A stretch of DNA of 44,697 nt, taken from Nitrospirota bacterium (GTDB taxonomy: Bacteria > Nitrospirota > Thermodesulfovibrionia > Thermodesulfovibrionales > Magnetobacteriaceae). This document shows, piece by piece, positions 22,392-41,779 of the stretch. The number at the start of each line of letters is the position of its first letter. The stretch's first letter is position 1. The stretch is from positions 1-44,697 of the forward strand of contig JADFYO010000027.1 of NCBI GenBank assembly GCA_015233015.1, read 5' to 3'. A program made the translations under genes and the position numbers. The notes under the pieces were generated by a model. It was not told the origin of the DNA. It made no database searches and was given only the letters and a program-made list of their open reading frames with translations.

Positions 22392-24605
22392 TTACTCTTC
22401 TTTCATAAAATTAATCCAGATAGGGAGTGCGGCGTGAGACCCTGACATTCCTTCGCCTATCGGGCGGTTTTCATCCCTGCCAACCCACACGCCTACCGTC
22501 AAATTATCGTCGAAGCCAATAAACCACGCGTCTTTGTAACTGTCGGTTGTGCCGGTCTTGCCAAATACCGGCCTGTTCAGAGACTTTGCCGCTATCGATG
22601 TCCCCTCGGTGACTACCGCGCTGAGTACGTCGCGCATCTTTGAGACGTTGGCAGGGTCTATGGCCTGAACTCCTTTAGGTGCGTTGTCTTCGACATGGAT
22701 ATTGTATCTGTCGGTTATTTTTTCGTAACCCATCGGCTCGAACCTCTTCCCATTTGCGAAGGTCGTATATGCGTAGGTCAGCTCAATGAGCGTCATTTCG
22801 GAGACCCCTATGGCAGAAGGCAGATGGGGATATATATTGCTCGTTACGCCAATTGACCGGGCAGTCGCTATCACCTTATCCATCCCGATAGAGTTTGCCA
22901 GAGCTACTGTAGCCGCGTTCAGAGAGCGTGAAAGCGCCGTCCTTAGCGTTACCCTTCCGTAGAATTTGTTTGTATAGTTGTGCGGGGTCCACTTCTCACT
23001 CCCATCTTTCGATAAGTAAGACACTGCCATGTCATCGATTGTATCATCCGGCGAATAGCCATTTTTAAATGCCGTTAAGTAAACGATTGGTTTAAAGACA
23101 GACCCTGTCTGCCTCATTGCCTGAGTTGCCCTGTTAAACTGCGATTTGTGATAGTTTGTTCCTCCGGCCATTGCCCTGATAGCCCCTGTGTTTAAATCTA
23201 CGGCAATGAGGGCGGCCTCAACCCCGGGCATCCCCGCCCTGGCCAGCGCCGCGGCCCCGTTTGTCACGGCTCGTTCCGCCTTTCTCTGTAAGTTCAGGTC
23301 AAGCGTAGTGTATATCTTAAAGCCGGCAGTGTAGAGCCTGTCGCCGAATTTTTGTTCCATAATGTTGCGAATGTACTCGACAAAATATGGGGCGGCGTAT
23401 TTTCTCCTGTAGATATATTCAGGTACCGGTTTTCTGATAGACGCAGCATAGACCTCAGTGTCGATAAATCCCCTGTCAAGCATTGATTTCAGGGCGAGAT
23501 TTCTCCTTGTGAAAGCCTTCTTAGGGTCTTTAAAAGGCGAATAAACAGATGGAGCCTTTGGGAGTGCCGCAAGCATGGCGGCTTCGGCTACGCTGAGGTC
23601 TTCGGTCTTTTTCCCGAAGTATGTCTGTGCCGCCGCTTCTATCCCGTAGGAGCGGGCACCAAAGTATGCCTGATTCAGGTAAAACGCCAGAATTTCATCT
23701 TTTTTGTACCGGCTTTCTATTTGCATCGATATGGCGGCCTCTTTTATCTTTCTCGAAATGCTTTTCTCAGGGGTGAGAAACAGCATCTTGGCAAGCTGCT
23801 GTGTTATAGTGCTGCCGCCCTGAACGGCGTTGCCTGCCCTGATATTGTTTATAAAAGCAGCACTTGTCCTAAAGAAATCTATCCCGTGGTGCTCGTAAAA
23901 ATGCGCGTCCTCAACGGCAATGAAGGCGTCTTTGACGTGTTTCGGGATCTTATAAAACGACACAAACTTTCGCCTTTCCAAATAAAACTCCGCTAACTCG
24001 ACCCCGTCTGAAGTATATAGAAAGGACGATTCAAATGGGACATAACTCTCCAGCATCTGTACTTTTGGCAGGTCGGACATATTATAAAAAATGAATCCCC
24101 CGGCTATCCCCGCCGCAATGGCCGACGCCACTGCTGCCGCCATAATAATTTTCTTCATGAACATGATATAAGGATTATCGCGGGTTCCCGCGAATAAACC
24201 GGCTAAAAAAACGAAGTACGTCTTAATCCTCAGGAATGCCTTATTTTTTATAAAATGTATTTCCCTGATTTTAAGAGTAACATCATCAGGGTTGATGGGG
24301 TCGGAGAAGCAACAGTCCTTTTTGATACCCGCGGATGTGAAGGACGGGATCTCCGCGGGGTCGGCAAATAAGATAATCTCAGCATCATGAAATCTGCTGT
24401 GCAGGGAAGTTATTATCTTAAATTCCCTGGATTGATAATGCTTTGTGTCAAAGACAATTATGGACGGTCTGCGCCTTCTTACCGCATATTCGAGTTCATG
24501 GCTGTTGTCAAAGAGCTTCGCCTTGAACCCGCCGTTTTCAATTATCTTTAGTAATAAGCTGCCCCTTGTCTTATCGACTGAAAAGACCAGTATGGGTACG
24601 GCCAT
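22392..24605 (-). CDS. Class A penicillin-binding protein with N-terminal receiver-like domain
   Basis: A bifunctional peptidoglycan synthase of 737 aa. Residues 1-120 form a CheY-like domain (ILVFSVDK with acidic Asp11; IIVFDTK with a possible phospho-acceptor Asp53; SDPINP, where Asp102 replaces the conserved Lys). A membrane helix follows (152-174), then GT51 transglycosylase (about 195-365; catalytic Glu232 in AVEDAHFYEHHG; GGSTITQQLAK) and transpeptidase (about 445-720; SVFK with Ser502, SLN 561-563, KTG 683-685). The receiver would lie in the cytoplasm and the enzyme outside. The start is 7 nt after the actin-like gene stop. An internal Met148-150 (MFMKK) could give a receiver-less form. 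Confidence 0.93.
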   Translation of the reverse strand: MAVPILVFSVDKTRGSLLLKIIENGGFKAKLFDNSHELEYAVRRRRPSIIVFDTKHYQSREFKIITSLHSRFHDAEIILFADPAEIPSFTSAGIKKDCCFSDPINPDDVTLKIREIHFIKNKAFLRIKTYFVFLAGLFAGTRDNPYIMFMKKIIMAAAVASAIAAGIAGGFIFYNMSDLPKVQMLESYVPFESSFLYTSDGVELAEFYLERRKFVSFYKIPKHVKDAFIAVEDAHFYEHHGIDFFRTSAAFINNIRAGNAVQGGSTITQQLAKMLFLTPEKSISRKIKEAAISMQIESRYKKDEILAFYLNQAYFGARSYGIEAAAQTYFGKKTEDLSVAEAAMLAALPKAPSVYSPFKDPKKAFTRRNLALKSMLDRGFIDTEVYAASIRKPVPEYIYRRKYAAPYFVEYIRNIMEQKFGDRLYTAGFKIYTTLDLNLQRKAERAVTNGAAALARAGMPGVEAALIAVDLNTGAIRAMAGGTNYHKSQFNRATQAMRQTGSVFKPIVYLTAFKNGYSPDDTIDDMAVSYLSKDGSEKWTPHNYTNKFYGRVTLRTALSRSLNAATVALANSIGMDKVIATARSIGVTSNIYPHLPSAIGVSEMTLIELTYAYTTFANGKRFEPMGYEKITDRYNIHVEDNAPKGVQAIDPANVSKMRDVLSAVVTEGTSIAAKSLNRPVFGKTGTTDSYKDAWFIGFDDNLTVGVWVGRDENRPIGEGMSGSHAALPIWINFMKEE

Positions 24606-24612
24606 TCAGGCG

Positions 24613-25689
24613 CTATTTCTCTTCGGCAATGGCCAGCTGCAGAGCACCCTTTGCCGTTGTGTTCAGGGGGTCTTCTGCCATCCGCACCGATGAAAACTGC
24701 AGCGGTAAACGGTTTGCCTTCAGTAGTTTTTCAAACTTCTCCCGTACACCCGCAGGCATGGCAGTGCCTCCGCTTAGGACAACCGAGATGGGTTTGGAGA
24801 GTCTGGGCACACTCTCCGATGTCGTTATAACGCGCTGAATGCTCAGAATCAAGCTCTCAAGCAGGTCTTCGTAATATATCGACAACGAAGTCTCAATTTT
24901 ATTTTTAGGCTCTTTCAGGAGATTAAGCTCTTTTTCTTTTATGAGTTTAATTCTGGTAGCAGACTCGCCCACCGCCGCCCCTACCATTGTGTCAACATAA
25001 TCCCCGCCCTTTTGGATGCTGTAAGAAAACACCGGTACGGACAGATATGAAAAGCACACATTGCACATCCCTCCGCCCATGCTTATCCCTATGCCGGTAT
25101 AACTCTCTTCGGCAAGTTCACTCATTATGACGGCAAATCCCTCGTTGATAGCAATTGCAGTGTATCCCATGTCCTGCAGGGTGCGCTTCAGAATGGTATC
25201 ATGGTGAAGTACGGAAATCTTGGTATCGATGGGTTCGCCGGGAATGCTGTAACAGACCAGCTCTCCCTGATTTTTAGGTGGCGGGACAAGTGTCTTAATT
25301 ATCGACTGAATAACGTTTAACGCCTCATCCTCCTTGGCGCTCAAGAGGCCGCTTTCTACCGGTCTTCTGGTGTCTGTATTAAATGTGTTGGCAAATGTGT
25401 CGGCCGCATTGCCGATTATATAATAACTCCCGTTTTGAGAGAAATATAAGACATCGTTTTTGAGCAGTGTCATTCCGGTAATCTTGGATGCAGGGACAGT
25501 AAAGAATGCGTTTAATTGTTTAGTTATTTGAATGCTCGCTCCCCTTGCGCGGGCTGAAACGATGTTAGTCGTACCAATATCAAGACCTATGGGACCGCCG
25601 AAGTGCTCTATCTCTTTAGGGCGGTCGGTTTGGATGACACCTTTTTGATTCGCTGCCGCAGCCTTTGCATCCTCGTTCTTGTCACTCAT
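24613..25689 (-). CDS. Actin/Hsp70-superfamily ATPase-like protein
   Basis: A protein of 358 aa with the actin-fold nucleotide motifs: phosphate 1 GLDIGTTNIVSA (about 34-45), phosphate 2 GIGISMGGGMCNV (about 198-210) and adenosine VVLSGGTAMPAG near the C terminus. The phosphate-2 Asp of MreB (DIGGGT) is a Ser here, so ATP hydrolysis may be altered. It resembles MreB, FtsA and EutJ-like proteins but I cannot assign it to one. A hydrophilic N-terminal tail (about 1-30) precedes the domain. It is coupled to the receiver-PBP1A gene, which implies a role in positioning cell-wall synthesis. Confidence 0.8.
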   Translation of the reverse strand: MSDKNEDAKAAAANQKGVIQTDRPKEIEHFGGPIGLDIGTTNIVSARARGASIQITKQLNAFFTVPASKITGMTLLKNDVLYFSQNGSYYIIGNAADTFANTFNTDTRRPVESGLLSAKEDEALNVIQSIIKTLVPPPKNQGELVCYSIPGEPIDTKISVLHHDTILKRTLQDMGYTAIAINEGFAVIMSELAEESYTGIGISMGGGMCNVCFSYLSVPVFSYSIQKGGDYVDTMVGAAVGESATRIKLIKEKELNLLKEPKNKIETSLSIYYEDLLESLILSIQRVITTSESVPRLSKPISVVLSGGTAMPAGVREKFEKLLKANRLPLQFSSVRMAEDPLNTTAKGALQLAIAEEK

Positions 25690-25754: not shown

Positions 25755-25818
25755 CCGGCTGATTACAGCCGGTAATAACTTTAAACATTGGGTAACATAA
25801 CAAATCACGCGATTTGTT
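25755..25818. other. Two hairpins between divergent genes
   Basis: CCGGCT-gattac-AGCCGG (25755-25772) and AACAAATC-acgc-GATTTGTT (25799-25818) lie between the actin-like gene (minus) and the UDP-glucuronate decarboxylase gene (plus). They may be operators or transcription punctuation; nothing else is recognisable in 25690-25934. Confidence 0.4.
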
Positions 25819-25934
25819 GTCAAGGCTGCCGCAGTGCCATGTCAGGATAATATACATAGTTCCGGCACAGTTCCGATTTGATTTTTTTTGAATAATAGTA
25901 TATTGTATTAGTGTACTATGGATATTTGTAATAA

Positions 25935-31382: not shown

Positions 31383-33629
31383 ATGGCGCAAGACGAGATG
31401 ATTTATTTTGCACATTCGGTTGAAGGCCAACCTCAAGAACAATGGCATACGCTTGATAAACACCTCCTCGACACGGCTGAGCTTGCCTCCGGGTTTGCTG
31501 ATGAGTTCGGATGTGCCGGTTGGGGATATATATCAGGGCTATGGCATGATTTGGGAAAGTATTCGTTAGATTTTCAGAACAAGCTGCTTGCCTCATCAGA
31601 TGCTCATATAGAAACAAATAAGGGCAGGGTTGACCATTCGACGTCCGGGGCGATTTATGCCGTTGAAAAATTCAACAAGATGGGCAGATTGCTTGCCTAT
31701 CTGATTGCTGGGCACCATGCGGGGCTGCCGGATTGGCAGACCGCCACGGCAGGAGGTAAGAGCCTTGCTCATCGTTTAGAGAATAAAGAACTTCTTAAAA
31801 AGGTGTTCGATTGTGACAATCCTAATGGTTCGGTCATCCCTAAATATATTATTGGGCATCCGTTTCCAGATGTGAGATTTAGAACAAGAAATGGTCATGC
31901 CCTATGGATAAGAATGCTCTACTCCTGTCTTGTTGATGCCGACTTTTTAGATACTGAGACCTTCTATGAACCTGAAAAGACACGAAGTAGAAAAGGATAC
32001 CCTGTGCTGCGTGAACTTCTGCCCTTGTTTGAGACATATATTGCAGATAAATTGGAAAATGCTGATGATACACCGGTTAACCGCAAACGCGCTGAGATAC
32101 TCAGGCAATGTATAGAGATGTCGGCACATAAACCTGCAATTTTTACTTTGACGGTTCCTACCGGAGGGGGAAAGACGCTATCATCTATGGCCTTTGCGCT
32201 AAATCACGCCGATAAGCCGGATTACAAAAAGAAAAGGATAATTTATGTCATACCATATACGAGCATTATCGAACAGACAGCCGATGAGTTTAGAAAGATA
32301 TTTGGCGATGCCGTGTTAGAGCATCACAGCAATGTCGATGTTTCAAACGAGGACACTGAAACCACTAAAGCCAGACTGGCCTGTGAAAACTGGGACGCTC
32401 CGATTATTGTGACGACTTCGGTTCAATTTTTCGATTCACTTTTCTCCAATCGCTCAAGCAGGTGCCGGAAACTGCACAACATTGTAAACAGCGTTGTTAT
32501 TCTTGATGAGGTTCAACTGCTGCCGCCTCAATATCTTAATCCAATTCTTCGTTCGATAAAAGAGCTTGAGCAAAACTACAACGTAACTTTTGTCCTCTGT
32601 ACTGCGACACAACCGGCATTTACGCCGCAGAAGTCTATTGATTTTAAATTCGAGGGATTAAGCGATACTATTGAAATAATGAACAACCCTCAGTCACTTC
32701 ATGAATCATTCAGACGTGTTGATGTCCATGTGCCGGAGGATTTAATAAAGCCGCGCTCATGGGAAGACCTTTACTCTGAACTGGCGCTGCATCCGTCGGT
32801 ACTCTGCATAGTCAACAGGCGGGATGATTGCCGGATTCTTTACGAATTGGTACGAAAAGAAAATGAGGCTGCATTTCATCTCTCTGGCTGTATGTGTGGG
32901 CAGCATCGTTCTGAAGTGATTAATAAAATAAAGGAGAGGCTCAAAGCGAAGATTCCAACGTGTGTAATAAGCACACAGCTTGTCGAGGCAGGAGTTGATT
33001 TTGATTTTCCTGTTGTTTACCGTGCGCTTGCGGGGCTTGATTCGATTGCTCAGGCCGCGGGCAGATGTAACAGAGAAGGTCTTATTGAGAAAGGACGTGT
33101 CGTGGTATTTATTCCACCAAGTAAAAATCCGGCAGGGTATCTCCGGCAGGCTGGTGAAATAGGCCGCAGACTGCTTGCTGAAAAAACAGAAGATCCTCTT
33201 TCTCCTGATAGGTTTGAACGGTTTTTTAAAGAGCTGTTTTGGATTCAGGGGAGTAACCTTGATAAGCACGATATTCTAAAAGACCTTGACGTAGATGCGG
33301 ATTTGAGATTCAGCTTTTTCACTGCCGCTCAAAAGTTCAAGATAATTGATGACAAACAATATAGTTCTGTAATCGTAAGATACGGGAAAGGGGCTGATTT
33401 AATCGAACTGCTGAAGACAAAAGGGCCGGAGCGGTGGTTGATGAGACGGCTTCAGAGATATGTAGTAAATTTACCGAAATATATCCACGCAAGAATATAT
33501 GATGACGGTGGTATAAGTGAAGTGCATCCAGGGATATTTGTTCAGGCGCATGGCGCGATGTATAACGATAACCTTGGGTTTTGCCCTGATAAGTCTATGC
33601 TGTATGAGCCTGATGAGATAATGATCTGA
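31383..33629 (+). CDS. cas3: Cas3 nuclease-helicase (type I-C)
   Basis: The effector nuclease of the I-C system, 748 aa. An HD nuclease domain (about 8-200) has HTLDKHLLDTAEL, GLWHDLGKYSLDFQ and AGHHAGLPDW. The SF2 helicase follows: motif I PTGGGKTLSSMAF, motif II DEVQLL (in place of DEAH), motif III CTATQ, motif V STQLVEAGVDFDF and motif VI QAAGRCNREG. Cas3 unwinds and degrades DNA bound by Cascade. The operon begins here after a 480-bp gap and continues to cas2 at 38990 without internal promoters. Confidence 0.96.
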   Translation: MAQDEMIYFAHSVEGQPQEQWHTLDKHLLDTAELASGFADEFGCAGWGYISGLWHDLGKYSLDFQNKLLASSDAHIETNKGRVDHSTSGAIYAVEKFNKMGRLLAYLIAGHHAGLPDWQTATAGGKSLAHRLENKELLKKVFDCDNPNGSVIPKYIIGHPFPDVRFRTRNGHALWIRMLYSCLVDADFLDTETFYEPEKTRSRKGYPVLRELLPLFETYIADKLENADDTPVNRKRAEILRQCIEMSAHKPAIFTLTVPTGGGKTLSSMAFALNHADKPDYKKKRIIYVIPYTSIIEQTADEFRKIFGDAVLEHHSNVDVSNEDTETTKARLACENWDAPIIVTTSVQFFDSLFSNRSSRCRKLHNIVNSVVILDEVQLLPPQYLNPILRSIKELEQNYNVTFVLCTATQPAFTPQKSIDFKFEGLSDTIEIMNNPQSLHESFRRVDVHVPEDLIKPRSWEDLYSELALHPSVLCIVNRRDDCRILYELVRKENEAAFHLSGCMCGQHRSEVINKIKERLKAKIPTCVISTQLVEAGVDFDFPVVYRALAGLDSIAQAAGRCNREGLIEKGRVVVFIPPSKNPAGYLRQAGEIGRRLLAEKTEDPLSPDRFERFFKELFWIQGSNLDKHDILKDLDVDADLRFSFFTAAQKFKIIDDKQYSSVIVRYGKGADLIELLKTKGPERWLMRRLQRYVVNLPKYIHARIYDDGGISEVHPGIFVQAHGAMYNDNLGFCPDKSMLYEPDEIMI

Positions 33630-33650
33630 TAATTAAAAGAGGAGGATATT

Positions 33651-34292
33651 ATGGGAGGTTTACCAGAAAGGAGTAACGCTTTCCGGTTGAGAGTGTGGGG
33701 AAGGAACGCCTGTTTTACGAGGCCGGAGATGAAAGTCGAGCGAGTATCTTATGACGTAATGACGCCATCGGCAGCACGCGGAGTGCTTGAGGCGATCTTA
33801 TGGAAGCCCGCCATTCGATGGAAGGTGAACCAGATAGACGTTCTGAATCCGATTAAATGGGAATCTGTACGCAGAAACGAGGTAGGCTCACCAATGTCTC
33901 CAAAAGTAAGTGAAATGTTTATTGAGGAATATCGTCAACAAAAGGCAGGCCTATTTCTCAGGGATGTTGCTTATACAATACATGGCTTTTTTGAACTTAC
34001 AGACAAAGCGGAAAAGGCTGACACAGTAGTCAAGTTTACAGAAATGTTTCTGCGCAGAGCAGAGAAGGGGCAATGTTTTCACCGTCCGTATCTTGGTTGT
34101 CGGGAATTCGCGGCAGATTTTGAAGTCTTCACAAACGGTAAGGCGTTACTCATGCCGATTCCTGAAACACGAGACTTAGGCTGGATGCTATATGATATGG
34201 ATTTCAGAGGAAAGGAATCTGTTGCCCGTTTCTTTAGAGCAAACCTTAAAGAAGGTCGCATGATAATTAATGAAGACGAGGTGAGACCATGA
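33651..34292 (+). CDS. cas5c: Cas5c (Cas5d), crRNA-processing endonuclease
   Basis: A protein of 213 aa. In type I-C there is no Cas6, and Cas5c cuts the pre-crRNA at the base of the repeat hairpin, staying bound to the 5' handle. The RAMP-like N terminus (FRLRVWGRNACFTRPEMKVERVSYDVMTPSAARG, in pieces near 10-45) and GCREFAADFEV are typical. It overlaps cas8c by 4 nt. A GGAGGATATT ribosome site fixes the start. Confidence 0.93.
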   Translation: MGGLPERSNAFRLRVWGRNACFTRPEMKVERVSYDVMTPSAARGVLEAILWKPAIRWKVNQIDVLNPIKWESVRRNEVGSPMSPKVSEMFIEEYRQQKAGLFLRDVAYTIHGFFELTDKAEKADTVVKFTEMFLRRAEKGQCFHRPYLGCREFAADFEVFTNGKALLMPIPETRDLGWMLYDMDFRGKESVARFFRANLKEGRMIINEDEVRP

Positions 34293-36091
34293 TTTTACAG
34301 GCGTTGTATGATTTGTTTGACAGAAGGAAAGATGAATTACCAGAGGAGGGTTTTGAAGATAAGGAGATACCTTTCTTAATTGGCATCAACAGTAAAGGTG
34401 AGTTTGTTAGTTTGCAGGACACAAGAACGCTTGATGGTAAAAAATTAAATGGACGGAAATTCAGGGTGCCAAAAGGTGCTGGACGTTCCTCTCCGAAAGC
34501 GTGGCAAATGGCAAACCTGCTTTGGGATCATTACGGATATGTATTCGGCTATTCTAACTCTGATAGTGACAACGACAAAGAAAAGACTGAAAAACAGCAT
34601 GAAACCTTTGTAAAACAGATTCAAAAACTTGCTGCCACATATCCAAGCGATATAGAACTGAATGCCGTCATGGAGTTTTACAAGAACAAGCAACATGAAG
34701 ATGTTTTTAAGCACCCTCTATGGCTGGATTGTAAAAATATCGCCGGATGTAATCTTACTTTTCAGATAGATGGGGTAGGTCATATTTGCGACAATGACAA
34801 TGTCCGCGCGTATGTTTCATCTAAGATAAATCAATTAGAATCCGATAGAGATGAAGACGATGTCCCATTGCAAAAAAAAGAGGGCATTTGTTTGATTACA
34901 GGCAATCTGTCAACAATAGCCCGATTGCATCCCAGAACACCGATTGCGGGGGCAAAAAGCAATGCCAAGATCGTATCCTTTCAAAAAAAATCAGGATTTG
35001 ATTCATATGGCAAGGAACAGAGTTACAATGCGCCCGTTAGTGAGAAGGCGGCATTTGCCTATACAACGGCACTTAATTATTTGCTTGCTAAAGGTTCACC
35101 ACAGAAAATATATGTTGGTGACACAACTACTGTCTTCTGGGCTGACAAAAAGCATAAGGTTGAGGACTTATTTATTGAGATATTTGGAGAACCGGCGAAA
35201 GGTGAACCTGAACAAGATTATAAAAGTCTGATTTCAATGTTTCGGTCACCAGAAACCGGCGTAAAGGTCGAACTTGATCCAGAAACGAAATTTTACGTTC
35301 TTGGTCTGGCACCTAATGCGGCACGAATAGCTATTCGTTTCTGGTATGCTGGTACTGTGGGGGAAATTGTTGATAAGATGTGGCAGCACTTCGATGATCT
35401 GGAGATAGTAAAATCCCCAAATGAATGGAGAACTATCTCATTAAGAAATCTGTTGAGATCAACGGCACAGCAGGAAAAGGATAAAAACATATCGCCAAAT
35501 CTTGCCGGTGATTTCATGAAGGCGATACTTGCTGGCACACCCTATCCTGTGACACTTCTATCATCAGTTATACGGAGGATAAAGGCTGAACAGTCGAAAA
35601 AGGATAGTAATGGGAAACCTATGCAAAATGTTACATATCCGCGAGCAGCGCTTATAAAAGCCGTGCTTGTCAGACAATCACGGTATAGAAATGAAAAGGA
35701 GGAGATTGGCATGTCATTAAATCTAAGCAACATGAATATCGGCTATCGTCTTGGACGGCTTTTTTCAGTTTTAGAAAAGATTCAAGAAGAGGCAAACCCG
35801 GGAATCAACGCAACCATTCGGGACAGGTTCTACGGTTCGGCATCAAGTACTCCTGTAACGGTATTCCCATTTTTGATGAGATTGAAAAATCATCATCTCG
35901 CGAAGCTTGAAAATAAGGGGCGCGTCAAAAACATGGAGAAACTCATTGCAGAGATTATGGATTCAATAACAGAATTTCCCGGTCATCTTAGCCTTGATGA
36001 CCAAGGACGTTTTACTATCGGATATTACCACCAGAGACGGGATTTATATACTAAAAAAGACAAAACAGAGGAGGATCCAACAAATGACTAA
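34289..36091 (+). CDS. cas8c: Cas8c (Csd1), large subunit of I-C Cascade
   Basis: A protein of 600 aa, the usual size for Csd1. It begins MILQALYDLFDRRKDELPEEGF and contains GICLITGNLSTIARLHPRTP, KSNAKIVSFQKKSGFDSYGKEQ and FWADKKHKVEDLF, all recognisable for Csd1. It recognises the PAM and holds the complex together. The last 126 codons are also read separately from an internal start as Cas11c (next entry). It overlaps cas7c by 8 nt. Confidence 0.95.
   Translation: MILQALYDLFDRRKDELPEEGFEDKEIPFLIGINSKGEFVSLQDTRTLDGKKLNGRKFRVPKGAGRSSPKAWQMANLLWDHYGYVFGYSNSDSDNDKEKTEKQHETFVKQIQKLAATYPSDIELNAVMEFYKNKQHEDVFKHPLWLDCKNIAGCNLTFQIDGVGHICDNDNVRAYVSSKINQLESDRDEDDVPLQKKEGICLITGNLSTIARLHPRTPIAGAKSNAKIVSFQKKSGFDSYGKEQSYNAPVSEKAAFAYTTALNYLLAKGSPQKIYVGDTTTVFWADKKHKVEDLFIEIFGEPAKGEPEQDYKSLISMFRSPETGVKVELDPETKFYVLGLAPNAARIAIRFWYAGTVGEIVDKMWQHFDDLEIVKSPNEWRTISLRNLLRSTAQQEKDKNISPNLAGDFMKAILAGTPYPVTLLSSVIRRIKAEQSKKDSNGKPMQNVTYPRAALIKAVLVRQSRYRNEKEEIGMSLNLSNMNIGYRLGRLFSVLEKIQEEANPGINATIRDRFYGSASSTPVTVFPFLMRLKNHHLAKLENKGRVKNMEKLIAEIMDSITEFPGHLSLDDQGRFTIGYYHQRRDLYTKKDKTEEDPTND
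35711..36091 (+). CDS. cas11c: Cas11c small subunit from an internal start in cas8c
   Basis: In I-C systems the small subunit Cas11c is known to be translated from within cas8c. Here an ATG at 35711 (codon 475 of cas8c, same frame) has an ideal Shine-Dalgarno, AAGGAGG at 35696-35702, 8 nt upstream. It encodes 126 aa starting MSLNLSNMNIGYRLGRLFSV, rich in helix formers, as expected for Cas11. No separate cas11 gene exists in the locus. Confidence 0.85.
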   Translation: MSLNLSNMNIGYRLGRLFSVLEKIQEEANPGINATIRDRFYGSASSTPVTVFPFLMRLKNHHLAKLENKGRVKNMEKLIAEIMDSITEFPGHLSLDDQGRFTIGYYHQRRDLYTKKDKTEEDPTND

Positions 36092-36968
36092 TCCAATTCA
36101 GAACCGCTATGACTTCGTACTTTTTTTTGATGTTAAAGATGGCAACCCAAATGGAGACCCCGACGCGGGGAATCTGCCGCGTGTCGACCCTGAAACCGGA
36201 CACGGGCTTGTTACCGATGTGTGTTTGAAGAGAAAGGTAAGAAACTATGTGCAGCTTATAAAAAACTGCTCTGTACCGTACGATATTTTTATCAAGGAGA
36301 AGGCTATCCTGAACAATCTGATTGATAAAGCACATGAAGAAGAAGATGTAAAGGCTAAAGAGAAGGGAGACAAAACAGAAGCAGCACGTCAATATATGTG
36401 CGGAAACTACTATGATGTCAGGACATTTGGGGCAGTCATGTCAACAGGAAAGAATGCCGGTCAGGTGCGCGGCCCCGTTCAACTTACCTTCTCGCGGAGC
36501 GTCGATCAGGTTGTACCGCTTGAACATAGTATTACGCGCATGGCGGTTGCAACTGAGGCGGAGGCAGAGAAACAGCAAGGGGATAACCGAACTATAGGAA
36601 GGAAGTTTACAATTCCTTATGGCCTGTATCGTTGCCACGGCTTTATATCTGCGCCATTTGCTGACAATTCAAATGGAAAAAACGGGACTGGTTTTAGTGA
36701 AGACGATCTAAAACTGTTTTGGGACGCACTTGTGAACATGTTTGAGTGCGACCACTCCGCTGCACGCGGTCATATGGCAACGAGAAAACTTATAGTCTTC
36801 AAGCATGACTCGGCACTTGGAAATGGGCCGGCACATAAATTATTCGATAAAATCAAGGCAACGGTTAATGATAAGACAAAGCCAGCGCGTGATTTTACCG
36901 ATTATACGATAACCGTGCCGAATCAATCCGATATGCCGCAAGGTGTAATCTTGGACGAAAAGCTCTAA
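36084..36968 (+). CDS. cas7c: Cas7c (Csd2), backbone subunit of I-C Cascade
   Basis: A protein of 294 aa. It opens with MTNPIQNRYDFVLFFDVKDG, followed by NPNGDPDAGNLPRVDPETGHGLVTD, and contains RNYVQL, YDVRTFGAVMSTGKNAGQVRGPVQ and SRSVDQVVPLEHSITRMAV. Several copies line the crRNA spacer in the effector complex. A longer frame from 35994 exists, but the ATG at 36084 has a GAGGAGG ribosome site and the family start, so I use it. Confidence 0.94.
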   Translation: MTNPIQNRYDFVLFFDVKDGNPNGDPDAGNLPRVDPETGHGLVTDVCLKRKVRNYVQLIKNCSVPYDIFIKEKAILNNLIDKAHEEEDVKAKEKGDKTEAARQYMCGNYYDVRTFGAVMSTGKNAGQVRGPVQLTFSRSVDQVVPLEHSITRMAVATEAEAEKQQGDNRTIGRKFTIPYGLYRCHGFISAPFADNSNGKNGTGFSEDDLKLFWDALVNMFECDHSAARGHMATRKLIVFKHDSALGNGPAHKLFDKIKATVNDKTKPARDFTDYTITVPNQSDMPQGVILDEKL

Positions 36969-37640
36969 TTGTACACTGAAGATGACCTGCTGCCGCTATC
37001 GGCGTTACAGCATCTGCTGTTTTGTGAGCGGCAGTGTGCGCTTATTCATATTGAGCAGGCATGGGATGAGAATCTCTTCACGGCTGAGGGCAGGATTATG
37101 CACGAGCAGGTTGACAGCGGCAAATCTGAAAGTCGGCGAGATATTAAAATCTCCACCGGCGTTGCCCTCCGGTCATTGGCTCTTGGACTGTCAGGTAAGG
37201 CCGATGTTGTCGAATTCCATAAGATTCGCAGCGATCCCGCTGTGAAAGGTTTAAAATGGCAGCCCTTCCCTGTTGAGTACAAACGCGGAAGCCCAAAAAA
37301 AGGTAATTACGATGTCGTTCAGCTCTGTGCTCAGGCAATGTGTCTTGAGGAAATGCTTGACGTCAGAATCGAACATGGGGCGATGTTTTATGGCAAGACA
37401 AGACGATGCCTCAACGTAATCTTCGACGCTGCACTTAGGCAGCTTACCGCACAAACCGCGATCAGGCTACATGAACTTATAGATTCGGGGGCGACGCCCT
37501 TTCCGCAGTTCGGCCCTAAATGTAAAAACTGCTCCCTCATCGAGATATGTCTGCCGCAGAATATGAAAAAGGGCCGCCCCGTCGAAAAATATATGGAAAT
37601 GTCCATTGCCAGAGGCATGGATGATATGGCGGAAGACTAA
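36969..37640 (+). CDS. cas4: Cas4 exonuclease
   Basis: A protein of 223 aa that starts with TTG directly after the cas7c stop (TAATTG). It has a RecB-like nuclease core (GKADVVEFH, PVEYKRGSPK) and the Fe-S cysteines (Cys in LLFCERQC, and the C-terminal CKNCSLIEICLP). In I-C, Cas4 trims prespacers and selects them by PAM during integration by Cas1-Cas2. It shares one base with the cas1 start. Confidence 0.93.
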   Translation: MYTEDDLLPLSALQHLLFCERQCALIHIEQAWDENLFTAEGRIMHEQVDSGKSESRRDIKISTGVALRSLALGLSGKADVVEFHKIRSDPAVKGLKWQPFPVEYKRGSPKKGNYDVVQLCAQAMCLEEMLDVRIEHGAMFYGKTRRCLNVIFDAALRQLTAQTAIRLHELIDSGATPFPQFGPKCKNCSLIEICLPQNMKKGRPVEKYMEMSIARGMDDMAED

Positions 37641-38695
37641 TGAAGCGATTATTAAATACCCTGTACGTTACGACACAAGGGGCATATCTCACGAAAGAGG
37701 GTGAGACGGTCGTCGTGAAGTCAGGCGATGATACGATGGTAAAGCTGCCGGTGCATAATTTGGGCAGCATCGTATGTTTTGGGCAGGTGATGAGCAGTCC
37801 AGCATTGATGGGATTTTGCGCTGAACGCGGTGTGTCGATAAGTTTTATGACGGAGTATGGGCGGTTTCTTGCAAAGGTGCAGGGGCCGGTATCAGGGAAT
37901 GTGTTATTAAGGAGGGAGCAATATCGCCGCGCTGACGACAGCGATGAGACGTTAAAAATAGCGAGGGCGGTGCTTACGGCGAAAATCTCCAATTGCCGAA
38001 CCGTGCTTAGACGCATGTTAAGGGATCATTCAGAATCACGCGACGGCGCGGCAGCCTCGAAATTTAACATAGACGCAGTGTCAAGTGCGGCCGACAGATT
38101 AGGCATGTCTATCGGCAGGCTGCAACGTGTGGAATCTCTTGATGAGATAATGGGTGTTGAGGGAGACGCGGCGCATAACTATTTCGGCGTATTCGACAAT
38201 CTGATTATTTCACAAAAGGAGGAATTCTATTTCAGGGAAAGGAGCAGGCGTCCGCCGATGGACAATGTCAACTGCCTGTTATCTTTTTTATATACGATAG
38301 TGCTGCATGACATACGGTCAGCGTGTGAGACGGTGGGGTTGGACCCTGCGGTAGGGTATATACACCGGGACAGGCCGGGGCGTCCGGGTTTAGCGCTTGA
38401 TATACTTGAGGAATTCAGGCCATACCTTGCGGACAGGCTTGCGGTAAGTCTTATAAATCTGGGGCAGGTGCGGCCATCGGGGTTTAAGAAACAGGAGGCC
38501 GGAGGGGTTTTGATGGATGATGAGACGCGAAAAACTGTTCTGATTGCGTATCAAAAGAGGAAACAGGAGGAGCTGACACATCCATTTTTGAATGAAAAAG
38601 TACCGGTGGGATTGCTGTGTCATGTTCAGGCGATGTTATTAGCGCGGTATATTCGACAGGATTTGGATGGTTATCCGCCGTTCATATGGAAATAG
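37640..38695 (+). CDS. cas1: Cas1 integrase (type I-C)
   Basis: A protein of 351 aa. Catalytic residues can be placed in the IMGVEGDAAHNYFGVF segment (Glu), in PAVGYIHRDRPGRPGLALDILEEFRP (His and Asp/Glu region) and in the following conserved helix. It integrates spacers at the leader-proximal repeat with Cas2. The start overlaps the cas4 stop by 1 nt (TAATG). Confidence 0.96.
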   Translation: MKRLLNTLYVTTQGAYLTKEGETVVVKSGDDTMVKLPVHNLGSIVCFGQVMSSPALMGFCAERGVSISFMTEYGRFLAKVQGPVSGNVLLRREQYRRADDSDETLKIARAVLTAKISNCRTVLRRMLRDHSESRDGAAASKFNIDAVSSAADRLGMSIGRLQRVESLDEIMGVEGDAAHNYFGVFDNLIISQKEEFYFRERSRRPPMDNVNCLLSFLYTIVLHDIRSACETVGLDPAVGYIHRDRPGRPGLALDILEEFRPYLADRLAVSLINLGQVRPSGFKKQEAGGVLMDDETRKTVLIAYQKRKQEELTHPFLNEKVPVGLLCHVQAMLLARYIRQDLDGYPPFIWK

Positions 38696-38702
38696 GTGGA
38701 AA

Positions 38703-38990
38703 ATGCTGGTATTGATAAGTTATGATGTATCAATTGAGGGGGATGGAAAGAGGAGATTGAGGAGGGTGGCGAAGGCATGTCAGGATTATGGGCAGAGGGT
38801 ACAGTATTCGGTGTTTGAGTGCATAGTAGATCCGGGGCAGTGGACGCACCTGCGACAAAGATTGATAGATGAGATAGACGAGGAGTGTGACAGTCTGCGG
38901 TTTTATTTTTTGGGATCGAACTGGAAGCACCGGATAGAGCACATAGGGGCTAAGGGCACATATGATCAGGAAGGGCCGCTGATATTTTGA
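38703..38990 (+). CDS. cas2: Cas2 (type I-C)
   Basis: A protein of 95 aa that begins MLVLISYDVSIEGDGKRRLR, the Cas2 ferredoxin-like fold, with YGQRVQYSVFECIVD and LRFYFLGSNW. It bridges the Cas1 dimers during spacer acquisition. An in-frame ATG at 38667 would extend into the end of cas1 and has no family similarity, so the Met at 38703 is preferred. Confidence 0.95.
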   Translation: MLVLISYDVSIEGDGKRRLRRVAKACQDYGQRVQYSVFECIVDPGQWTHLRQRLIDEIDEECDSLRFYFLGSNWKHRIEHIGAKGTYDQEGPLIF

Positions 38991-39170
38991 AAATGCGAAC
39001 CCAAAGCGGACATATTTATACAAGGGCGGTTCGCGCAGATAAAATTATCTTATAATACAAAGAGTTACAAATAATGATCTTTGATAAGAAGAGAATAGGT
39101 TACACAAAACCGCCATGTAGGCGGAAAGTACATGTAAGAGCCTTGGCTATCAACGCTGTCAAAGGCGACA
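38991..39170 (+). promoter_or_regulatory. CRISPR leader
   Basis: 180 bp of AT-rich sequence between cas2 and the first repeat. A TATAAT box is at 39051-39056 (no good -35). A hairpin CCGCC-atgta-GGCGG is at 39110-39124. The last bases GGCGACA pair with the first bases of repeat 1 (GTCGCC) as a 13-nt palindrome spanning the junction. New spacers should enter at this end, and transcription runs through the array on the plus strand. Confidence 0.75.
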
Positions 39171-41779
39171 GTCGCCCCTCACGCAGGGGCGTGGATTGAA
39201 ACTTAAAGCAGTCAAAGGCCAATTCAAGGGACGTGGTCGCCCCTCACGCAGGGGCGTGGATTGAAACAGATATATCGAGGCGCTAAACGGCTCAAAGATT
39301 GTCGCCCCTCACGCAGGGGCGTGGATTGAAACTCATCAGGCGGAGGCGGTAATCTACCCGGCCCGAGTCGCCCCTCACGCAGGGGCGTGGATTGAAACGG
39401 CTACAACGTCATCAAACCCGATGCGATGGGCGGTCGCCCCTCACGCAGGGGCGTGGATTGAAACAATTGATACGACAAAGGCATTCCCGTGCCGTCATGT
39501 CGCCCCTCACGCAGGGGCGTGGATTGAAACCTCTACCTTTGCGTCCGTTGTTTCCTTGACGTGCGTCGCCCCTCACGCAGGGGCGTGGATTGAAACACGT
39601 TCGAAACCTGAAACTCTTAGGAGGTGTAGCAGTCGCCCCTCACGCAGGGGCGTGGATTGAAACTCATTACCTCGTCCATTGTTGCTATATGGTCAACGTC
39701 GCCCCTCACGCAGGGGCGTGGATTGAAACCTCATAATCTGTGTTATTGCCTGAAGACACTATGTCGCCCCTCACGCAGGGGCGTGGATTGAAACTATTAA
39801 CCGGCATTCCGTCAATAGAAAAAGATGCGTCGCCCCTCACGCAGGGGCGTGGATTGAAACAGCTTTGAGTTCCTGCTTCACATCGCCCGTTACAGTCGCC
39901 CCTCACGCAGGGGCGTGGATTGAAACAGTTATTGTCATTTTCCGTCGTCCCTTATACTAACGTCGCCCCTCACGCAGGGGCGTGGATTGAAACTAAGTCG
40001 TATAGCTACGCCGGTACAATGGATAGGGTCGCCCCTCACGCAGGGGCGTGGATTGAAACTTGTGCTGATTGAAGCTGAACGATTTCAGCGTCCGTCGCCC
40101 CTCACGCAGGGGCGTGGATTGAAACCCGCATGGTTGGCAGGCATGGTAAAGAAATCCGAGTCGCCCCTCACGCAGGGGCGTGGATTGAAACAGGCGTATC
40201 CCATACCTGCATCTGTCTAATCGTCTGGTCGCCCCTCACGCAGGGGCGTGGATTGAAACATCCTCAACTCGCAAGTCTCTATCTCCACTCAGCGTCGCCC
40301 CTCACGCAGGGGCGTGGATTGAAACGGCTTTGTTCCTATAGGGTTTTTACCTGCCTGTGTCGCCCCTCACGCAGGGGCGTGGATTGAAACTTTACCCGAT
40401 TAGGGGACAACCCTAACGGGCTATGTCGCCCCTCACGCAGGGGCGTGGATTGAAACCTGATGAGGAGCTTGATTATAACCTTGCTACTGCCCGTCGCCCC
40501 TCACGCAGGGGCGTGGATTGAAACCATTGAGACGCTGCCGGTGCCCCAGATGGGTTATGTCGCCCCTCACGCAGGGGCGTGGATTGAAACACAGGTGCGG
40601 AAACGAAAAGAAACGAGGGGAACCGTCGCCCCTCACGCAGGGGCGTGGATTGAAACTGTATCGATGGTCTGCTGATTGTAGAAAGCCCTGGTCGCCCCTC
40701 ACGCAGGGGCGTGGATTGAAACGGGCACTATTATGAAGAATTTACCGATCCTATAGTCGCCCCTCACGCAGGGGCGTGGATTGAAACAGGCAATACTTGA
40801 ATGCGGTCCAATACCTTCTTTGGTCGCCCCTCACGCAGGGGCGTGGATTGAAACAGATGTAATTTGCTGGCATAGACTTATAGTATCAGTCGCCCCTCAC
40901 GCAGGGGCGTGGATTGAAACACACCTATTTTACGGCAAAAACTACATATATCATTATGTCGCCCCTCACGCAGGGGCGTGGATTGAAACCATTTACTAGC
41001 TACGTGGCGTTATGCAATAACTGGTCGCCCCTCACGCAGGGGCGTGGATTGAAACAGCTATAAAGGCTTTTGCTACTATCTGCTTTATGTCGCCCCTCAC
41101 GCAGGGGCGTGGATTGAAACATTTACTAGCTACGTGGCGGCTACACGGCGTTAGGTCGCCCCTCACGCAGGGGCGTGGATTGAAACCATATTAACCTCTT
41201 TAATAATTTTATTTACTCAGTCGCCCCTCACGCAGGGGCGTGGATTGAAACAAATTACATACATCTTAATCAACATATGTTATACGTCGCCCCTCACGCA
41301 GGGGCGTGGATTGAAACATGATATAGCTAAACCACAAACTATAGATTATATGTCGCCCCTCACGCAGGGGCGTGGATTGAAACGTACTAACCAGTGTCAT
41401 CGGAGGGATTGAACCAGGGGCGCCCCTCACGCAGGGGCGTGGATTGAAACGATATGCGTCTCCGCGTATATCCTTGCAGGTGGGTCGCCCCTCACGCAGG
41501 GGCGTGGATTGAAACACGAAGTAATCAAAGAACTCCTCAAGCGCAGTATGTCGCCCCTCACGCAGGGGCGTGGATTGAAACTTAATAGTGCCGGAGTGAA
41601 TCGAGTCGTCATCGGTCGCCCCTCACGCAGGGGCGTGGATTGAAACATATTACGGCAAAGTAAATTCGGGGGACGCATGGGTCGCCCCTCACGCAGGGGC
41701 GTGGATTGAAACAAAGACAAATTGCCCTGTGGCTTGGACTGGGTATTGTCGCCCCTCACGCAGGGGCGTGGATTGAAAC
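39171..41779 (+). CRISPR. Type I-C CRISPR array, 40 repeats and 39 spacers
   Basis: The 32-bp repeat begins GTCGCCCCTC and ends GATTGAAAC. Its transcript folds into a 7-bp stem (CGCCCCT with AGGGGCG) around a CACGC loop, the form cleaved by Cas5c. I counted 40 repeats by start position from 39171 to 41748; spacers are 33-37 nt. All repeats look identical except number 35 (41419), which has G in place of T at position 2. Spacers 28 and 30 share 19 nt at their 5' ends. The last repeat is intact, and a truncated gene follows immediately. Confidence 0.99.

Follow-up and report, generated by a model that had tools for sequence, protein, structure and literature searches.

In the window, the whole 44,697-nucleotide stretch of DNA that was analysed, a penicillin-binding protein (PBP) of the PBP1A type carries a CheY-like pseudo-receiver at its cytoplasmic N-terminus and is encoded directly behind an actin-like protein. 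We propose that the pseudo-receiver is probably an actin-docking adaptor, in which case the fused PBP1A would be a synthase recruited by an actin and distinct from the MreB system; the binding itself we infer. Searches of the open-access literature found neither a described receiver-PBP fusion nor an actin-linked class A PBP, in agreement with the first-pass annotation, to which a receiver-fold domain on the cytoplasmic side of a class A PBP was not known as a described arrangement. That annotation missed the adjacent actin gene, as well as the separately encoded copies of the domain next to a magnetosome-type actin. Because the actin lies 7 bp upstream and the free domain also adjoins an actin of magnetosome type, the likely function shifts from a signalling input to a cytoskeletal adaptor.

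Domain layout of the fusion protein

The fusion gene (positions 22392 to 24605, minus strand, as are all features of the protein given below) has an ATG start and no internal stop and encodes 737 residues, which Pfam, TIGR02074 and AF2 resolve into a pseudo-receiver, a long helix, a membrane helix and a PBP1A. The GT51 transglycosylase domain (Pfam ID PF00912; residues 203 to 375, positions 23481 to 23999) is matched with an E-value of 1e-65 and the transpeptidase domain (Pfam ID PF00905; residues 466 to 701, positions 22503 to 23210) with an E-value of 1e-31, and the protein scores 603.6 bits against the curated NCBIfam PBP1A cut-off of 508.75 bits (TIGR02074). GT51 Glu233, the SxxK Ser502, SLN at residues 561 to 563 and KTGT at residues 683 to 686 are all present and invariant among 23 aligned sequences (17 fusions, 6 plain PBP1As), so that the initial reading of two complete domains with all catalytic motifs holds.

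The full-length AF2 model runs from the receiver through the long helix (residues 106 to 139, positions 24189 to 24290), in which the final receiver helix extends toward the membrane, and a single predicted membrane helix (residues 145 to 177, positions 24075 to 24173), also indicated by its hydrophobic sequence, to the PBP. The long helix contains a short hydrophobic stretch with basic residues on both sides, and the model confidence is low at about residues 121 to 140 (pLDDT about 47). The N-terminal part and the PBP are conserved together across five genera of one family, and both are under purifying selection, with dN/dS values of 0.06-0.13 for the N-terminal part and 0.06-0.12 for the PBP part. 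The N-terminal part is therefore neither a chance extension of the open reading frame nor an annotation artefact. An internal start at Met148, previously suggested as the source of a receiver-free isoform, was rejected, the position not being conserved (the majority of homologues carry Val, Ser, Arg or Leu) and all homologues beginning at the receiver. In the MYbin6 assembly (L033:6001-8254), the fusion is present as two open reading frames of 326 and 423 residues, reflecting either a real break or an assembly error.

Residues 1 to 120 (positions 24246 to 24605) form the pseudo-receiver. There is no Pfam match in residues 1 to 141 of the fusion, and a PDB search with the single N-terminal sequence gives no match; a 25-sequence family profile was required, which matches Spo0F with an E-value of 2.5e-6. 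The structure predicted by AF2 on a 25-sequence alignment has the five-strand order of receivers (pLDDT 83.8, pTM 0.74), and its top Foldseek match is likewise Spo0F (E-value 7e-7). VIA-align gives a Z-score of 16.2 to a CheY-like receiver, and hhalign to local canonical receivers a probability of 95 with an E-value of 2.8e-8. The predicted (beta-alpha)5 fold of CheY, which had first been read from the letters of the sequence, is thus confirmed at the level of models and profiles.

The catalytic set of canonical receivers (DD, D, T and K) is replaced at four of its five positions, leaving only D53, a result on which three alignments agree. The acidic pair has become Ser9/Val10, the Thr is Ala81 and the Lys is Asp102. 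The first-pass annotation had recognised the exchange of the Lys correctly and had counted Asp11 and Asp53 as kept; Asp53 does occupy the phosphorylated position of receivers and is found in 33 of 34 sequences, but Asp11 aligns one position past the acidic pair and so lies outside it. The loss of catalytic residues is common to the whole domain family, free-standing relatives included, with Ser9 in all 34 sequences and residues that are mostly hydrophobic or small at the second position of the pair. Judged by these residues, the domain is a pseudo-receiver under the published definition of a receiver relative without at least one of the five catalytic residues (PMC12632262). With four of the five catalytic positions lost, gating by phosphorylation is unlikely, and of the two modes of gating suggested at first, phosphorylation and partner binding, the second is the better half.

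A comparable case is FrzS, a receiver fold without phosphorylation chemistry, whose pseudo-receiver controls polar localisation (PMC1974792). In FrzS the Asp is missing and the output is a coiled coil, whereas the domain described here keeps the Asp, has lost the acidic pair, the Thr and the Lys, and is joined to a periplasmic enzyme.

The partner actin and the free-standing form of the domain

The gene preceding the fusion (positions 24613 to 25689, minus strand), whose stop codon lies 7 bp before the ATG of the fusion, encodes an actin-like protein of 358 residues belonging to the Volactin family (Pfam ID PF25216; 281 bits, cut-off 35). A promoter-like sequence, TTGACA-18-TATGTT (positions 25794 to 25823, minus strand), precedes the actin gene by about 105 bp; sites of this kind occur in the region about as often as expected by chance, and the position of this one fits a two-gene operon. 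The phosphate-2 loop of the actin reads S-M-G-G-G and is invariant in all 21 actins of both operon types described here. A Ser in place of the Asp in this loop (SxGxG) is the signature of Mad28 (PMC10653835), and this published motif and the gene order, rather than direct comparison with a characterised Mad28, suggest that the partner actin is of the Mad28 kind.

The search for the same fusion in related genomes, proposed in the first pass, found it in 18 loci of magnetotactic Nitrospirota. The actin is directly upstream in 17 of them; in two of these (L025 and L042) the assembled actin gene is incomplete or broken. At L025:3101-4258 the actin is in two frames on a contig with a coverage of 3.6x, probably a sequencing error. 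The exception among the 18 is the most divergent fusion (genome G012, L045:7173-9362 on contig C34), which has no adjoining actin, the Volactin-type actins of that genome being located at contig ends elsewhere. Between genus-level clades, the actin is the only conserved neighbour of the fusion, with no wider conserved operon within about 8.5 kb besides generic low-identity hits. In several loci the ribosome-binding region of the fusion falls inside the end of the actin gene, and purifying selection is stronger on the actin (dN/dS about 0.02-0.05) than on the fusion (about 0.1). Genome G009 (nDJH13bin3) contains two fusions with an actin beside each; the two fusions are sisters in the PBP tree and the two actins in the actin tree, which indicates that the pair was duplicated together.

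The domain profile also finds proteins of 140 to 177 residues made of little besides the pseudo-receiver. Of the 16 loci that encode such free adaptors, 14 have a second Mad28-type actin immediately ahead of the adaptor and 15 have a ParA/MinD ATPase (mad29-like) immediately after it. The host genome carries this set on contig C55, next to feoB/feoA-like genes, and the combination of actin, free adaptor and ATPase recurs in three other families belonging to the order and class. All 16 free adaptors (e.g., L059:8969-9502) end in a conserved LxxDLxxFLxLK-like tail, which is absent from the fusions and may dock the ATPase encoded next. The loci match two published regions by gene order and motif rather than through named sequences: a region of LBB01 with mad28, mad29 and a "hypothetical protein" (PMC9376291), and a region of XS-1 with mad30, mad17, mad28 and an unknown gene (PMC10278575). 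The Mad28-Mad29 region of Nitrospirota magnetosome clusters resembles the operon in the window in that a relative of this pseudo-receiver comes after a Mad28-type actin. It differs in that its adaptor is free and precedes a ParA/MinD ATPase, whereas the adaptor in the window is part of a PBP1A fusion with no ATPase behind it. By gene neighbourhood, the pseudo-receiver travels with actins of the Mad28/Volactin type.

The two kinds of actin differ at their N-termini. No clear amphipathic helix is present in the 25 to 39 residues before the actin core in any of 14 PBP-linked actins, whereas most magnetosome-type copies have one; those of family f1 with a complete start have 70 to 106 residues before the core, with the amphipathic helix present.

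Two further loci contain actins of this family. In genome G010 (L129:6238-8891 on contig C18), a different Volactin-type actin is found near a mad29-like ATPase, and the 178-residue protein encoded between them has no Pfam match and is not a pseudo-receiver. In genome G272 (L128:4385-9033 on contig C14), a Volactin-family actin (315 bits) is encoded within a gas-vesicle cluster, between GvpF/GvpL-type genes and before GvpG, which suggests that actins of this family are linked to a further organelle.

Among 396 genomes of the phylum Nitrospirota, the profile search confines the fusion to the Magnetobacteriaceae, the weak phylum-wide hits (E-values of about 1e-5 to 1e-9) being longer response regulators and similar proteins. 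The fused and the free forms occupy the two sides of one branch in the receiver tree (97/98), which shows that they share a common ancestry. The PBP tree unites 16 fusion PBPs in a single clade (100/100) distinct from the plain PBP1As, with the PBP of G012 of uncertain placement. The PBP-linked actins form one group, with weak support (79/63, 80% of bootstraps), that neighbours the group of magnetosome-locus actins (99/96) and is separate from it. The simplest history would be that the actin-adaptor module was duplicated and the adaptor fused once to a duplicated PBP1A in the ancestor of a part of the Magnetobacteriaceae.

A proposed actin-recruited wall synthase and competing readings

The pseudo-receiver accompanies one kind of actin in two operons whose outputs differ, one having an ATPase and the other a wall synthase, so the property of the pseudo-receiver shared by both is most likely actin binding. 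The two-gene operon would accordingly be read as encoding a dedicated actin and the wall synthase recruited by it, with the pseudo-receiver as a phosphorylation-independent protein-protein adaptor docking on Mad28/Volactin-type filaments. In the magnetosome-associated operon the adaptor would act as a free protein, its C-terminal tail probably docking the adjacent ParA/MinD-like ATPase; in the PBP operon it would instead run into the membrane helix and the PBP1A. A filament on the inner face of the membrane would then hold and position a periplasmic enzyme with glycan-polymerising and cross-linking activity. Since the PBP-linked actin lacks the N-terminal amphipathic helix, the membrane helix of the fusion may also act as the membrane anchor of its companion actin. 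The gene linkage is compatible with direct binding or with a shared pathway.

Mad28 polymerises and interacts with MamK (PMC10653835). It also binds membranes and follows their curvature, and its N-terminal region is required for filaments, a truncated form making none (PMC12713370). The magnetosome chain is placed at positive curvature by Mad28 (PMC12748827). By analogy, a Mad28-related actin tied to PBP1A would place wall growth by geometry, and we infer that the partner actin forms filaments, physically binds the adaptor and contributes to cell shape, to curvature or to growth of the wall at local sites.

One of the closest known parallels is the MreB elongasome (MreBCD/RodZ, RodA-PBP2 and PBP1A), where an actin filament on the inner face directs peptidoglycan synthesis, as proposed here, and a PBP1A-type enzyme takes part. 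The actin here is of the Volactin/Mad28 type and the adaptor is covalently joined to the synthase, whereas MreC, MreD and RodZ make the link in the elongasome. The host keeps a separate MreB-MreC-MreD-PBP2-RodA operon, identified from sequence on contig C140, and a plain PBP1A of about 606 residues on contig C106. We consider it an evenly balanced question whether the module duplication and the adaptor-PBP1A fusion created a second, MreB-independent wall-building actin system, with the pseudo-receiver as a general docking module for Mad28/Volactin actins. So far, bacterial actins have been known to guide wall synthesis only by way of membrane-protein chains, the contacts within which have been hard to define, and here evolution has apparently fused the filament adaptor to the synthase. 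If the proposal is true, a second actin would be added to the wall-directing cytoskeletons, the evolution of the magnetosome cytoskeleton would be tied to cell shape in a group of strikingly varied shapes, and a function could be assigned to the unnamed protein that the magnetosome region encodes between mad28 and mad29.

An unlikely alternative is that the pseudo-receiver tunes the PBP allosterically, or senses a ligand or the redox state through a conserved face, while the actin is merely co-expressed, for example for shape or magnetosome work. The family has its own conserved set of residues (S9, D11, R14, G15, D53, C99, P103 and P106), located at the former active-site end, with Cys99 in 32 of 34 sequences. 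Regulated class A PBPs are also known, for example in the GpsB-PBP1 pair, where an N-terminal cytoplasmic element serves as a docking site. These tails are short and without a folded adaptor domain, and actins are not among their known partners; docking through the cytoplasmic N-terminus would be common to them and the fusion, which differs in its folded domain and its proposed actin partner. The conserved face, however, is common to the fused and free forms, and the free form has no PBP to tune, yet adjoins the same kind of actin, which speaks against this reading.

It is doubtful that the fusion is foremost a magnetosome factor, anchoring Mad28-type filaments to the wall or membrane and holding the chains, with PBP activity secondary. 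Mad28 does position magnetosome chains (PMC12748827), and the genomes with the fusion are magnetotactic: of 19 family genomes, 16 have a MamK that scores above the curated cut-off, and the remaining three are 73-84% complete. Against this, the PBP part retains its full set of catalytic motifs and evolves under strong purifying selection, and the PBP-linked actins form a group separate from the magnetosome-locus actins. Moreover, two well-assembled genomes (G010 and G011, 92% and 98% complete) have MamK and Volactin-type actins but no fusion, which is therefore not essential to magnetotaxis or this lifestyle.

A working receiver in which phosphorylation of Asp53 toggles peptidoglycan synthesis is very improbable: the receiver fold and Asp53 are there, but the metal-binding acidic pair, the Thr and the Lys are gone, and no kinase gene lies next to the actin-fusion pair.

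Host genome and neighbouring loci

The same-genus relatives of the host include Candidatus Magnetominusculus. Its own MamK, above the curated cut-off, is encoded on contig C22 beside cation-efflux proteins and genes resembling a magnetosome cluster. The window also contains a type I-C CRISPR-Cas locus (positions 31383 to 41500, plus strand), with Cas3 at 31383, Csd1/Cas8c at 34289 and Cas4 at 36969, behind which an array of about 39 repeats (GTCGCCCCTCACGCAGGGGCGTGGATTGAAAC) extends from 39171 on.
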